This document shows, in pieces, positions 34,813 to 59,012 of a DNA stretch of 64,000 nt. The notes beneath the pieces are model-generated. The model was not told the DNA's origin. It worked only from the letters and a program-made list of their open reading frames with translations, and made no database searches. The DNA comes from Planctomycetota bacterium (GTDB lineage: Bacteria; Planctomycetota; Phycisphaerae; SM23-33). A program made the position numbers and the translations under genes. The stretch covers positions 1-64,000 of the forward strand of contig JAKPKY010000065.1 of NCBI GenBank assembly GCA_029553505.1, in the 5' to 3' direction. The stretch's first letter is position 1. Each line of letters starts with the position of its first letter.

Positions 34813-34822
34813 GACCGACGTA

Positions 34823-34918
34823 ACGGAACTCGGAACTGGGGAACCGGGAACACGGAAAGACCATCTTGCGCGAAGCCTAGTTCCTTGTTCCGAGTTCCTG
34901 GTTCCTTATTTTGGTTCC
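34823..34918. repeat. Dispersed GGAACNC-type inverted-arm element (copy A)
   Basis: Left arm GGAACTCGGAACTGGGGAACCGGGAACACGG, core ACCATCTTGCGCGAAG, right arm of GTTCC units. Confidence 0.75.
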
Positions 34919-35138
34919 CTTGCTGTTGGGGGTTTCGGCTCGTATCATGTCTCGGAGCGGGCAACAAGAGGGCCCCGGCAGGAGCCGGCCGGCCTGGGTT
35001 CCCCCCCAAGGCGGGCTCGCGTTTCCGTGCCGAGGCCTGTTGCGTCGGCGGGCGGCCCCCCGGCGCCGTCCGGTCGACGAAACGGTTTGTAAGACGCCCC
35101 GCGGGGGGCAACAAGTCACTTCCGCAAGGAAATGCGAC

Positions 35139-37601: not shown

Positions 37602-37607
37602 TTTTTT

Positions 37608-38113
37608 AGTAGCCGGCAGCCAGTAGCCGGTAGCCGGTAACGGCAGTGTCAGCTTTCGGAAACGGCCTTCTTTCTCTGCAAGTACCCAATATATCCGTTC
37701 AAGAGCTTCAGAAGCTCCAGGCAATCTTCCCGCTTGAACTGTTCCAGGCGTTCCTTGTCGGCGTAGCGTTCGTCAATGCAAACATGAATCTGATCGATCA
37801 GTTCCATCAGGGAACCGCGTGAATGCCTGCAAAACTGCGTATTTTCCTGCCAATGGTGGCGTCCATATCCTTCGGCAATATTGCTTGTGACGGATACGGA
37901 AGCCCGTCGCATCTGGTCGGCCAGCCCCTTCTGCTCGTGGGACGGAAGCATTTTTGCCAGGGCATAGATTCGCTGTCGGAATCTCCTTGCCGCCTTGTAG
38001 ACGTCCAAATCTTCGAACCCGAACGGGCTTGCCGATTGGCCATACTTGCTCATGCTCTGTCCTCATCGCATGATGCATTCCGCCCCGACTACTGGCTACT
38101 GACTACTGGCTAC
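37608..38113. mobile_element. Putative intercistronic cassette with inverted AGTAGCC-repeat arms around a four-helix-bundle ORF
   Basis: Left arm AGTAGCCGGCAGCCAGTAGCCGGTAGCCGGTAACGG 37608-37643; right arm GACTACTGGCTACTGACTACTGGCTAC ~38088-38113, inverted. Confidence 0.6.
37649..38053 (-). CDS. Four-helix-bundle protein (S23/bAvd-like, 23S rRNA intervening-sequence type)
   Basis: FGFEDLDVYKAARRFRQRIYALAKMLPSHEQKGLADQMRRASVSVTSNIAEGYGR is characteristic of the family. Confidence 0.9.
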   Translation of the reverse strand: MSKYGQSASPFGFEDLDVYKAARRFRQRIYALAKMLPSHEQKGLADQMRRASVSVTSNIAEGYGRHHWQENTQFCRHSRGSLMELIDQIHVCIDERYADKERLEQFKREDCLELLKLLNGYIGYLQRKKAVSES

Positions 38114-41419: not shown

Positions 41420-41547
41420 TTTCGATTTCGGATTTTCGATTTTAGAATGTCGGCGCGAAAAGCGGCGCCGTTGCTGTTTTATAGTTCGGAGTTCGTAGTT
41501 CGAAGTTCGAAGATCGCCTCGACCTTCTTCCGCCTTCGAACTTCGAC

Positions 41548-42036
41548 CTACGACCTTCGACCTTCTTCTGCCAGGCACACCACGGCCAGCGCGGCGATTC
41601 CTTCCTCGCGTCCGACGAAGCCCATCCGTTCGTTGGTCTTGGCCTTGACGGACACGGCCTCGGCGCCGACGCCCAGCAGGGCGGCGATCCGCTCCCGCAT
41701 CGCGAGTTTGTGGGCGGAGAGCTTCGGTCGCTCGGCCAGCACGGTCACGTCGGCGTTTTCCACCCGCCAGCCTTTCCGCCGCGCCAGTTCGACGGCCTGC
41801 CGGACGAACGTCGCGCTGTCCGCGCCGGTCCAGCGCGGGTCGGTGTCGGGGAAGCGCTCGCCGATGTCACCGGCACCCAGCGCCCCGAGCAGCGCGTCGG
41901 TCAGGGCGTGCAGGACGGCGTCGGCGTCGCTGTGCCCGGCCAGGCCCTGCTCGTGCTCGATGCGCACGCCGCCCAGGACCAGCGGCCTGCCGGCGGCGAA
42001 ACGGTGCGAATCGTATCCGAAACCGATTCTCGGCAT
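41548..42036 (-). CDS. ispF: 2-C-methyl-D-erythritol 2,4-cyclodiphosphate synthase
   Basis: RIGFGYDSHRFAAGRPLVLGGV, GLAGHSDADAVLHALTDALLGALGAGDIGERFPDTDP; start 42036 or 42042. Confidence 0.93.
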   Translation of the reverse strand: MPRIGFGYDSHRFAAGRPLVLGGVRIEHEQGLAGHSDADAVLHALTDALLGALGAGDIGERFPDTDPRWTGADSATFVRQAVELARRKGWRVENADVTVLAERPKLSAHKLAMRERIAALLGVGAEAVSVKAKTNERMGFVGREEGIAALAVVCLAEEGRRS

Positions 42037-43280: not shown

Positions 43281-43404
43281 CGCGAATCTTCAAGTAGGAC
43301 AGGCGTCTCGCCTGTCTTGCCGGGAGATCGAGGAGCCTGCATCGGCGCCGACGGGCCCACGCCCGCCGGCGTCGTGCTTTTAGTAGCCAGTAGCCAGTAG
43401 CCAG

Positions 43405-43512
43405 TAGCCGGGAGCCGGGGAAGAAAGGACCCGGAACTCGGAACCAGGAACCCGTTTCCGCGCAGGATGCTTTTCCCGTGTTCCCGGTTCCCCCGTTCCG
43501 GGTTCCGGTCTT
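43405..43512. repeat. Dispersed GGAACNC-type inverted-arm element (copy B, reverse orientation)
   Basis: GGACCCGGAACTCGGAACCAGGAACCCG TTTCCGCGCAGGATGCTTTTCCC GTGTTCCCGGTTCCCCCGTTCCGGGTTCC; preceded by AGTAGCC heptamers. Confidence 0.8.
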
Positions 43513-56235: not shown

Positions 56236-56547
56236 TCAGTCCTGGCGGATCGTGACGTTGATCCTTTTGCTGGGCCGGGGCGCGGCGGAATCGTCTCCCG
56301 AGGCCTGTTGCTGCCGGGCGATCATGCGGCGGAGTTTCCACCGCAGAATCAAGACGGCGGCGGCGCCCAGCACGGCCGCGAACGCCGCCACCCCCAGCGC
56401 GATGGCCAGCAGGATTCCCAGCGCCGGAAGCAGCAGGACGCACAGCAGCGCCCCGCCCGCCAGCGCCGCGACGGCCGAAAGCGCCGCGGCGAACTTCTGC
56501 CCCGGCGTCCGCTCCGGTCCGCCGATCTGGATGAAAATCCGCCTCAA
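56236..56547 (-). CDS. Small hypothetical membrane protein
   Basis: 4 nt overlap with etfA; two hydrophobic segments. Confidence 0.55.
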   Translation of the reverse strand: MRRIFIQIGGPERTPGQKFAAALSAVAALAGGALLCVLLLPALGILLAIALGVAAFAAVLGAAAVLILRWKLRRMIARQQQASGDDSAAPRPSKRINVTIRQD

Positions 56548-57566
56548 CGTTCCGTCCCTTCGCCGCCGGGCTTGCCTTGCGCCGCGCGGAGCTTCACGGT
56601 CAGCGCCGGCGCCACGTCGAACAGGCTGCCCACGATCCCGACGTCCGCCACGCGGAAGATCTGCGCGTCGGGGTCAGTGTTGACGGCAACGATCGTCTCG
56701 GCCGTCTGCATGCCCGCCAGGTGCTGGATGCTGCCCGAGACGCCCAGCGCGACGTACAGGCGCGGCGTGACGGTCTTGCCCGACAGCCCGATCTGGTGCG
56801 GGTAGCTCAGCCAGCCGCGGTCCACCACGTCGCGCGTCGCGCCGAGGGCGGCGCCCAGGGCGTCGGCGAGCTTCCGCGCGACGGGCAGGTTGTCGGCCTT
56901 CTTGATTCCGCGTCCGACGGCCACCACCGCGTCGGCGTCCTGGAGTCCGTGCTCGTCGGCATTGGGCACGAAGTCCACGCGCCGCACGCGCGACGGGGGC
57001 AGGTCGGCCGGAGCGGCCAGGCGCTCGATTTCCCCAACGCGCCCGGGTGTGCGGTCGGCGGGGCGGGTGCTCCGCGGACGCACCGTCGCCATCTGCGGGC
57101 GGTGGCGCGGCGTCTTGATCGTCGCCAGGATGTTTCCGCCGATGGCGGGGCGGGTCTGGAGCAGGTTGCCCGTCTTTTCCTCGATGTCCAGTTCGGTGCA
57201 GTCGGCCGTCAGACCCGCGTGCGCGAGGATCGCCACGTACGGCATCAGCGTCCGCCCGGTCGTCGTCGCGCCGGCGATGACGATCTCCGGGCGACGGTCC
57301 GCCAGCAGCTTCAGCAGGCACGCGGCGTACGGCTCGATCAGGAAGTGCTCCAGGCGAGGCGATTCCATCGCGATCACGCGGTCCGCGCCGCGCTCAAGGA
57401 GTTCGGCCAGGTCTGCGTCGTCGATGCGGTTTCCGAAGATCACGGCCGCCAGCTCGCACCCGCGCTTGTCCGCCAGCGCCCGCCCGCGCGTCAGAAGCTC
57501 GTGACTGATCCGCTGCACCCGCCCGCCTTGCTGCTCGGCCAGTATCCACACTCCGCTATGTTGCAT
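56544..57566 (-). CDS. etfA: Electron transfer flavoprotein alpha subunit
   Basis: GWLSYPHQIGLSGKTVTPRLYVALGVSGSIQHLAGMQTAETIVAVNTDPDAQIFRVADVGIVGSLFDVAPAL. Confidence 0.93.
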   Translation of the reverse strand: MQHSGVWILAEQQGGRVQRISHELLTRGRALADKRGCELAAVIFGNRIDDADLAELLERGADRVIAMESPRLEHFLIEPYAACLLKLLADRRPEIVIAGATTTGRTLMPYVAILAHAGLTADCTELDIEEKTGNLLQTRPAIGGNILATIKTPRHRPQMATVRPRSTRPADRTPGRVGEIERLAAPADLPPSRVRRVDFVPNADEHGLQDADAVVAVGRGIKKADNLPVARKLADALGAALGATRDVVDRGWLSYPHQIGLSGKTVTPRLYVALGVSGSIQHLAGMQTAETIVAVNTDPDAQIFRVADVGIVGSLFDVAPALTVKLRAAQGKPGGEGTER

Positions 57567-57581
57567 CTGCCTCTCCTGACA

Positions 57582-58069
57582 ACCAAATCCGAAATTCGAA
57601 GCACGAAATTCGAAACAAATCCAAAACAGACAAATTCAAAACTCCGGTTGCCCAGTTCTGGTCATTCTGATTTCTGGAGAATGGCCCCGAAGATTTTCAT
57701 CAATTCGGTAGATTCCTGGATCAACGAAAGCCTTTCCTTTTCTACGGAAGATTCCGCCGCCGTATGGACAAGTTTGAGCCAGTACCGGCTTTCTTTGGCC
57801 TCCTTGCGGCAAATCTTGATTCGCATCACAAAATCCTTTTTGCTCAGAGACTCATTCGCCTCAATGTAATTCGCGCCGACCGATCCCGAAGCTCTGATGA
57901 GTTGTCGCCCGTCTTCAATGTTCGCCAGTGTCCGCGGCAATGTTTTGGCGAAGGCCCTGACTTTCCTGGCGAAGAGAAATGTCCGCTCTTCTAAATCATA
58001 CTGGCCGGTGTTTTGGGTTTTGGACATTGGAATTTGTTTCGGATTTCGTATTTCGGATTTCGTGCTTTA
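57582..58069. mobile_element. Putative intercistronic cassette with inverted GAAATCC/GAAATTC-repeat arms around a four-helix-bundle ORF
   Basis: Left AAATCCGAAATTCGAAGCACGAAATTCGAAACAAATCCAAAAC; right GTTTTGGACATTGGAATTTGTTTCGGATTTCGTATTTCGGATTTCGTGCTTTA, inverted. Confidence 0.6.
57662..58027 (-). CDS. Four-helix-bundle protein (S23/bAvd-like)
   Basis: DLEERTFLFARKVRAFAKTLPRTLANIEDGRQLIRASGSVGANYIEANESLSKKDFVMRIKICRKEAKESRYWLKL. Confidence 0.9.
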   Translation of the reverse strand: MSKTQNTGQYDLEERTFLFARKVRAFAKTLPRTLANIEDGRQLIRASGSVGANYIEANESLSKKDFVMRIKICRKEAKESRYWLKLVHTAAESSVEKERLSLIQESTELMKIFGAILQKSE

Positions 58070-58867
58070 TCAGATGAGTTCCCTGGTCTGGAGGAATTCC
58101 ACCACGCGGTCGGCGGCCAGCGCGACGGACGTCTCGTCGGCGGCGACGAGTTTTTCGCATTTCCGCGCGACGCTGGGGCGGAAGATCTTCACCACCCGCG
58201 TGGGCGAGCCCTCTAGACCCAGCTTGGAAGGCTCCACGTCCAGGTCGCCCATCGTCCACACCGGCACGTCCGCGCGCTTGGCCTTCTGCTTGCCCCGCAG
58301 CGTCGGCAGGCGCGGGTCGGAAATCTCCTTGACCACCGTCAGCACGCAGGGCAGATCCGCCTCGAGCACCTCGTAGCCGTCCTCGACGAGCCGGTGCATG
58401 CGGCATCGCCCGTCGGAAACGGACTCGATGCGGCTGACGTAGCTGACCACCGGAAGCCCGAGGAACGCCGCGATGCCCGGGCCCACCTGCCCCGTGTCGC
58501 CGTCGGTGGCGCGCTCGCCGCAGAGCACGAGGTCGAACTCGCCCAGCCGGCGGACGGCGGCCGAAAGCACGTAACTCGTCGCCCACGTGTCGCTGCCGGC
58601 GAACGCCTTGTCGCTGAGCAGGACGGCCGTGTCGCACCCCATCGCCATCGCCTCGCGGAGCGCGGTCATCGCCTTCGGCGGGCCCATCGACACCGCCGTC
58701 ACCTCGCCCCCGTGGGACTCGCGCAGGCGGATGGCCGCCTCGATGGCGTACAAGTCCAGCGGATTGATGATCGCCTCGACGCCCTCGCGGATCATCGTGC
58801 CCGTCGCCTCGTCCATCCGGACGGCGTTGGTCTCCGGCACCTGCTTGATCGGAACCACGATTCTCAT
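58070..58867 (-). CDS. etfB: Electron transfer flavoprotein beta subunit
   Basis: MRIVVPIKQVPETNAVRMD, NPLDLYAIEAAIRLRE, CGERATDGDTGQVGPGIAAFLGLPVVSYV. Confidence 0.93.
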   Translation of the reverse strand: MRIVVPIKQVPETNAVRMDEATGTMIREGVEAIINPLDLYAIEAAIRLRESHGGEVTAVSMGPPKAMTALREAMAMGCDTAVLLSDKAFAGSDTWATSYVLSAAVRRLGEFDLVLCGERATDGDTGQVGPGIAAFLGLPVVSYVSRIESVSDGRCRMHRLVEDGYEVLEADLPCVLTVVKEISDPRLPTLRGKQKAKRADVPVWTMGDLDVEPSKLGLEGSPTRVVKIFRPSVARKCEKLVAADETSVALAADRVVEFLQTRELI

Positions 58868-59012
58868 GCTCGCTCCCTTGGATGCGTGAACCGTTGTTTG
58901 TAGCCGCTGGGTGGGAGGCAATCAAGGCCCTGCCTTTCGCCATTCTTCCGTCAATCTGCTGGTCTGGGAGAAAAATTTTGCTATACTTCCCCGCCTGAGC
59001 AAAGGAGCGATC

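Follow-up and report, generated by a model that had tools for sequence, protein, structure and literature searches.

Inverted heptamer arms around an S23/IVP four-helix-bundle gene between etfB and etfA, and the same plan in about two dozen bacterial phyla

Introduction

Intervening sequences (IVSs) of 23S rRNA genes include short forms without an open reading frame (ORF), as in Salmonella. The 23S IVS of Coxiella burnetii is 428 nt long, with a 28-bp terminal stem and one small S23/IVP ORF in the same orientation as the host transcript, and a selfish or mobile origin has been proposed (PMC4990558). In Xcc0516, a relative of the IVP protein, five four-helix bundles form a ring (Lin et al. 2006, as cited in PMC4990558). 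Structures of S23/IVP proteins have been solved, but their function is not known.

The STRRs of cyanobacteria are heptanucleotide repeats. Such repeats have also been described in Xanthomonas and Nostoc, including 70 inverted pairs of GGGAATC repeats in Xcc, and they are generally not tied to mobile elements (PMC4692102); a TAACTGA repeat occurs in Beggiatoaceae (PMC4679880). We found no literature that links IVP genes to heptamer repeats, although bioRxiv and most subscription papers lay outside our coverage. Here we describe a fixed association of an IVP protein with inverted heptamer arms, which joins three puzzles: the function of S23/IVP proteins, the origin of 23S intervening sequences and the origin of heptanucleotide repeats.

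Results

A heptamer-armed IVP gene lies between etfB and etfA

We analysed a 64,000-nt stretch of a Planctomycetota genome (positions 1 to 64,000 of contig JAKPKY010000065.1, assembly GCA_029553505.1), called the window below. On its minus strand, etfB is followed by a left arm, a small four-helix-bundle gene, a right arm and etfA (Table 1), so that an element of ~490 bases consists of one small gene between mirror-image arms of 7-base repeats. The original prediction placed the start of the first arm at the etfB stop codon and the mirrored arm ~20 nt before the etfA ATG, and both placements stand: the left arm begins one base past the TGA, and the right arm lies 18 nt from the ATG. Read as its reverse complement, the right arm is AAATCCG AAATTCG AAGCACG AAATTCG AAACAAATCC. 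An inverted-repeat search pairs the two over 58 nt at 74% complementarity, rising to 94% in a 17-nt core. The arm stem is present in the minimum free energy structure of the RNA, but the element as a whole folds only mildly better than shuffles (z=-1.43). There was no Rfam match across 56500-59000.

Table 1. Positions of the etf element, its neighbours and other heptamer-armed features of the window.
Feature	Position	Strand	Basis and remarks
etfB, upstream neighbour	58070..58867	-	PF01012 E=5.6e-51; TGA 58072-58070 abuts element
Left (5') arm AAAGCACGAAATCCGAAATACGAAATCCGAAACAAATTCC, tandem 7-nt units	58029..58068	-	Sequence; class CG heptamer AAnnnCG, as in relatives
S23 / 23S-IVP / Avd-like four-helix-bundle gene, 121 aa	57662..58027	-	TIGR02436, PF05635, structure model
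Right (3') arm, inverted copy	57585..57622	-	Sequence, inverted-repeat search; plus-strand reading AAATCCGAAATTCGAAGCACGAAATTCGAAACAAATCC
etfA Shine-Dalgarno AGGAGAG, outside element	57571..57577	-	G000 vs G001 comparison; kept in scar-bearing G001
etfA, downstream neighbour	56544..57566	-	PF01012 E=5.6e-46, PF00766 E=2.5e-33; ATG 57566-57564
Second IVP gene of window, GTAGCCN heptamer arms, beside ruvB	Element about 37607-38113, gene 37649-38053	-	
Gene-less heptamer hairpin, TTCGAAG type	41483-41563		30-nt arms, 87% complementary, 21-nt loop
Gene-less heptamer arrays, GGAAC type (inverted) and a GTAGCCA array	34820-34925, 43374-43508		Hairpins near 34820-34925 and 43431-43508

The gene was expected to be of S23 type and to run on the strand of its neighbours, and a profile search assigned its product to the IVP family (TIGR02436, E=1.4e-18; PF05635, E=1.4e-12). 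The AlphaFold model has four helices (pLDDT 92.7), and its best matches among PDB folds are the S23 structures 2rld and 2gsc, followed by the DGR protein Avd (4dwl and 8ub7, TM about 0.6-0.8). Ratios of dN/dS among close subfamily pairs are 0.10-0.34, and the IVP protein is therefore under selection. Its ATG sits at the inner end of the arm without a Shine-Dalgarno sequence. This single ORF matches only PF05635 and TIGR02436, so that the element encodes no transposase or recombinase, and no Y1 HUH transposase was found within it.

Start and stop signals are intact in both etfB and etfA, which leaves the operon open to read-through. With three co-directional genes and an intact etfA ribosome-binding motif, the expectation that an insertion here would leave the operon readable agrees with the locus at the sequence level, in the absence of transcript evidence. 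Calling it the third armed cassette of the window was right in spirit rather than to the letter, the window also holding the GTAGCCN-armed IVP gene and gene-less heptamer hairpins.

The congener retains a scar of the two arms

In most relatives from the same family, the etfB-etfA gap measures a few to about 100 nt and contains no gene. The closest genome compared, a same-genus congener (G001), shares 96.2% (etfB) and 94.0% (etfA) DNA identity with the window's own genome (G000), and its gap of 60 nt lacks the gene and reads TGACAAAGCACGAAATCCGAAGCACAAATTTCGGATTGGGTTG, in which the outer ends of the left and right arms are fused. Because G001 is without the gene and holds only this scar of two outer arm ends, the reading of the etf element as an insertion between normally adjacent genes, already proposed on the ground that etfB and etfA are usually adjacent, is supported. 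A conserved armless IVP gene between the two, which would have spoken against that proposal, was not found in the relatives. Given the scar, the element would most likely have been present in the common ancestor of G000 and G001 and have collapsed in G001.

A reciprocal site exists, with a full IVP element in G001 (C195) where G000 has a 36-nt solo arm (C56). Three gene-less elements of G000 (C157, C29 and C7a) are absent at the orthologous sites of G001, and a fourth (C81b) leaves a tiny remnant there. The gene-less copies share with MITEs terminal inverted repeats, dispersed copies and occupied as well as empty sites. About ten junctions, none with a closely matched empty site, revealed no target duplication of constant length, and the site matching one gene-less G001 element (C4) is a rearrangement breakpoint. 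We did not see a transposition event, and the clearest pairs show loss rather than gain of a gene-bearing element.

IVP genes lie between etfB and etfA not only in G000 but also in two further genomes (G021 and G019), and after etfA in two others (G009 and G002). The copies in these four genomes each have arms of their own, and those of G021 and G019 are decaying. A single clade for the etfBA IVP genes was not rejected (AU test, p=0.416); one ancient insertion with changing arms and repeated insertion at a favoured site both remain possible. As a separate observation, the IVP gene that G019 carries between etfB and etfA (L073, 2374-2836) is split by an insert of ~115 nt. The ends of this insert are inverted (CTCCCTCA/TGAGGGAG), and it is apparently a further small element nested in the gene.

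Heptamer arms recur throughout the window's genome

Across all 2.5 Mb of the genome we counted 50 matches to TTCGNNNTTCGNNNTTCG and 2 to a reversed control pattern, and 37 to GTAGCCN with 0 to its control. In a short-period scan of the window, only period 7 was enriched, with 6 arrays at lag 7 and 0-1 at lags 4-6 and 8-11. The inverted-arm score has a median of 18 for relatives and of 8.5 for 326 other ORFs from the same loci. Both the excess of pattern matches (50 vs 2) and the difference in arm scores indicate that the heptamer arms are not due to chance.

Heptanucleotide repeats are common in bacteria, and earlier literature has invoked slippage to account for them (PMC4679880), raising the possibility that the arms are replication-slippage arrays with the IVP gene as an incidental neighbour. 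However, the arms are inverted about the gene at most loci examined, and their class follows the protein tree (see below). We consider such an origin extremely improbable, and reject it as an explanation in which the gene is incidental, since the other ORFs of the same loci score so much lower.

Two of the four IVP genes in G000, the etf copy and one on C111, have CGAA-type arms; their proteins are 67.5% identical, and the C111 arms match over 35/35 nt. About seven more inverted CGAA pairs, mostly of 100-180 nt, contain no gene, and several arms stand alone. A separate repeat family, the palindrome GGGTGGCACGGCTTGCTTGCAAGCCGTGTT, is abundant in G000 and G001 (L096, L235, L242, L247), and is also nested within one gene-less heptamer element.

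Arm class follows the protein rather than the host

A scan of 84,980 species genomes yielded at least 462 relatives of the etf protein, of which the best 80 (60-73% identity) were analysed. These best 80 come from about two dozen phyla that include Planctomycetota, Patescibacteria groups, Thermodesulfobacteriota, Myxococcota, Omnitrophota, Nitrospirota, Chloroflexota and Bacteroidota; binning errors may account for some of the cross-phylum relatives, but not for such breadth. Only one weak match to the protein family turned up in phage records. The same layout was present in the 79 relatives compared, with a span usually of 440-480 nt and a lag-7 identity of 0.60 in the arms, and 20 relatives, like the etf copy, lie outside rRNA. 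Strict heptamers most often number four, with AAACAAAT following them; with the count nearly fixed at 4 strict units, a phase-variation array is ruled out. No known Rfam RNA was recognised in the arms of the etf element or its relatives.

The subfamily heptamer is AAnnnC plus one base, which may be G, T or another but is constant through an element. Accordingly, the two arms of one element are CG/CG in 30 cases and CT/CT in 15 and never a CG/CT mix, and both arms share a class in 48 of 73 elements, where shuffling gave at most 36. On the protein tree, right-arm class changes 9 times (shuffled minimum 21) and left-arm class 13 times (minimum 22), so that the suggestion that each arm type tracks a protein clade holds when tested. 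Host phylum, in contrast, changes 41 times against a shuffled minimum of 43. Because arm class follows the protein and phylum hardly does, arms and protein travel together between hosts.

Within the subfamily, an arm pairs with its own partner no better than with a different arm of its class (-42.1 vs -44.5 kcal/mol). Pairing is thus conserved class by class and not in the individual element, and recognition by the protein may outweigh exact pairing. Individual compensatory pairing between the arms of one element was not seen within a class.

These comparisons bear on whether the element is mobile at all. The cassette could instead be old, mostly vertical and regulatory, with co-diverging arms that form, for instance, an RNA hairpin setting etfA expression: several genomes of the family have IVP genes at etfB-etfA, where one clade is not rejected (p-AU 0.42), and translation could be affected by arms placed so close to stop and start codons. 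Yet proteins of 60-73% identity occur in about two dozen phyla, which are scattered over the protein tree, the gene has been lost or is decaying in G001, G021 and G019, and different host genes adjoin nearly every locus. We therefore regard a non-mobile cassette as improbable, and favour a mobile hairpin element.

Elements in operons lie in the sense orientation

Among subfamily elements located between two co-directional genes, 51 are sense and none is antisense; resident genes in the same flanks are sense in 63 cases and antisense in 10. Because neighbours were called as longest ORFs, some of these assignments may be in error. In 24 of 43 cases the stop codon of the upstream gene is no more than 8 nt before or 5 nt after the start of the arm, and in 40 of 59 the downstream gene starts 3-34 nt past the arm, while the host genes themselves differ at nearly every locus. 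A Shine-Dalgarno-like motif precedes only 8 of 80 IVP starts; expression of the gene through read-through and reinitiation is the natural inference, for which there are no RNA data.

Other IVP families share the plan

At 39 IVP loci from the family and class, the arms vary (AGGGACT, TGGCAAC, AGTTCCT, GAAGATC, AGCCAAT and others), but left arms score a mean of 21.3 against their own inverted right arms and 8.6 in swapped pairs, with 21 of the 39 above the 99th percentile of swaps. Sixty arms from these families have identities of 0.64, 0.60 and 0.53 at lags 7, 14 and 21, compared to about 0.27 at the same lags in 370 control flanks. Diverse IVP families are likewise mostly in sense (22 vs 3 antisense), as are annotated plasmid IVP loci (7 vs 3, n=10). 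Cyanobacterial plasmid copies have inverted heptamer arms with up to 39/39 identical positions, and perfect arms such as (TAATTCG)n occur on plasmids of Nostoc and Dolichospermum. About one third of the IVP homologues examined in related genomes have no clear heptamer arms.

On plasmids of Nostoc and Anabaena, a four-helix-bundle gene stands in antisense between cas2 and cas1 (L310, 1492-1848; L311, 1492-1839), and other plasmid four-helix-bundle genes sit in CRISPR, DISARM or restriction gene clusters.

Two genomes (G071 and G060; L290-L309) hold 21-25 TIGR02436 genes each, many of them 75-90% identical in DNA beyond the gene. These copies have no heptamer arms and are associated with other repeats such as GAACGACGTTC, and so were discarded as cases of recent movement of heptamer elements; they are another amplified four-helix-protein unit.

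Discussion

We think it likely that the etf element is a copy of a small hairpin element that is mobile and akin to the IVSs of 23S rRNA, and that it was inserted in sense into a protein operon behind the etfB stop. In this reading, each of the two inverted arms consists of about 4-5 tandem heptamers, and between them lies a gene for a pentamer-type S23/IVP four-helix bundle. On comparative sequence evidence, the locus is an insertion and belongs to a multi-phylum family of fixed plan, in which the two arms of an element agree in class and this class goes with the protein instead of the host; the elements are in sense orientation within operons, and gene-less derivatives and collapsed scars exist.

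How such an element would move is inferred. Read-through from the host operon would express the IVP gene, the arms would pair in the transcript, and the ring of protein would bind the repeated heptamers; binding of the arms by the protein is probable, although there are no binding data, and one heptamer per subunit is an attractive guess. The resulting nucleoprotein hairpin might be what is copied or inserted, with cutting and joining left to an enzyme of the host or a helper, and no mobility enzyme for the heptamer element was identified. Deletion between arms would leave solo-arm scars; some of the heptanucleotide repeats scattered through bacterial genomes may have arisen in this way, a prediction and not a result.

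Two routes could supply the missing step. First, a sense transcript coated by the Avd-like protein could be copied by a resident reverse transcriptase (RT; of a DGR, a group II intron or another source) and then inserted, which would fit the strong sense bias, the resemblance of the fold to Avd, an RT partner in DGRs, and the lack of an obvious target-site duplication at the junctions examined. However, only 19 of 40 host genomes yielded an RT, and the window's genome has a single partial match, on another contig (C219); this negative is weak because the host genomes are incomplete MAGs. Such a retroelement remains possible, but we would not call it likely. Alternatively, a host transposase, whether of the Y1/REP type (HUH) or another, could move hairpins of single-stranded DNA, with the protein only binding or protecting the arms. 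Hairpin ends, the absence of a clear target duplication and the many gene-less copies are all compatible with such movement, and Y1 transposases are present in 31 of the 40 genomes. The remaining 9 lack them, however, the arms lack two marks of REPs, a foldback and a short conserved tetranucleotide, and no mechanism at the DNA level alone explains 51 sense against 0 antisense elements, leaving this route doubtful, if tenable. Neither RT nor Y1 transposase was found in all 40 genomes, which speaks against either as a universal helper, and neither is proven as a helper given these counts in incomplete genomes.

The proposed mobile hairpin element belongs to a widespread family that is apparently mobile and lacks an enzyme of its own. 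A broader proposal, which we advance only tentatively and to which we give somewhat less than even weight, is that S23/IVP is the sole protein of a class of mobile elements distinct from known transposons, a ring that recognises 7-nt inverted arms and moves at the RNA level or with borrowed enzymes behind the stops of operon genes, so that 23S IVSs would be its rRNA insertions and many heptanucleotide repeats its relics. What can be tested is the idea that the protein binds the repeats of its own element and that this element is a mobile hairpin that encodes no enzyme.

Among known systems, MITEs and REP/RAYT elements also form short, gene-less intergenic copies with inverted repeats, several per genome; the heptamer elements differ in that no transposase parent was found, the arms have period 7 and some copies contain a four-helix gene. 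The Avd protein of DGRs has the same four-helix-bundle fold, although its structures rank behind S23 proteins, but the etf gene has no adjacent RT or template/variable repeat and is located between inverted heptamer arms of its own. The 23S rRNA IVSs share the protein family, a similar size and terminal inverted repeats able to close a stem. Unlike these, the etf element resides in a protein operon and not inside a 23S rRNA gene, and heptamer elements have arms of tandem heptamers of several unrelated types and many copies per genome; because it is not in rRNA, the etf copy fails the definition of an IVS, though it would work much alike. Heptanucleotide repeats, finally, differ in that no link to IVP genes appears in the available parts of PMC4692102 and PMC4679880, but they too consist of tandem 7-nt units in intergenic regions, often in inverted pairs in Xanthomonas, and on Nostoc plasmids perfect heptamer arms flank IVP genes.
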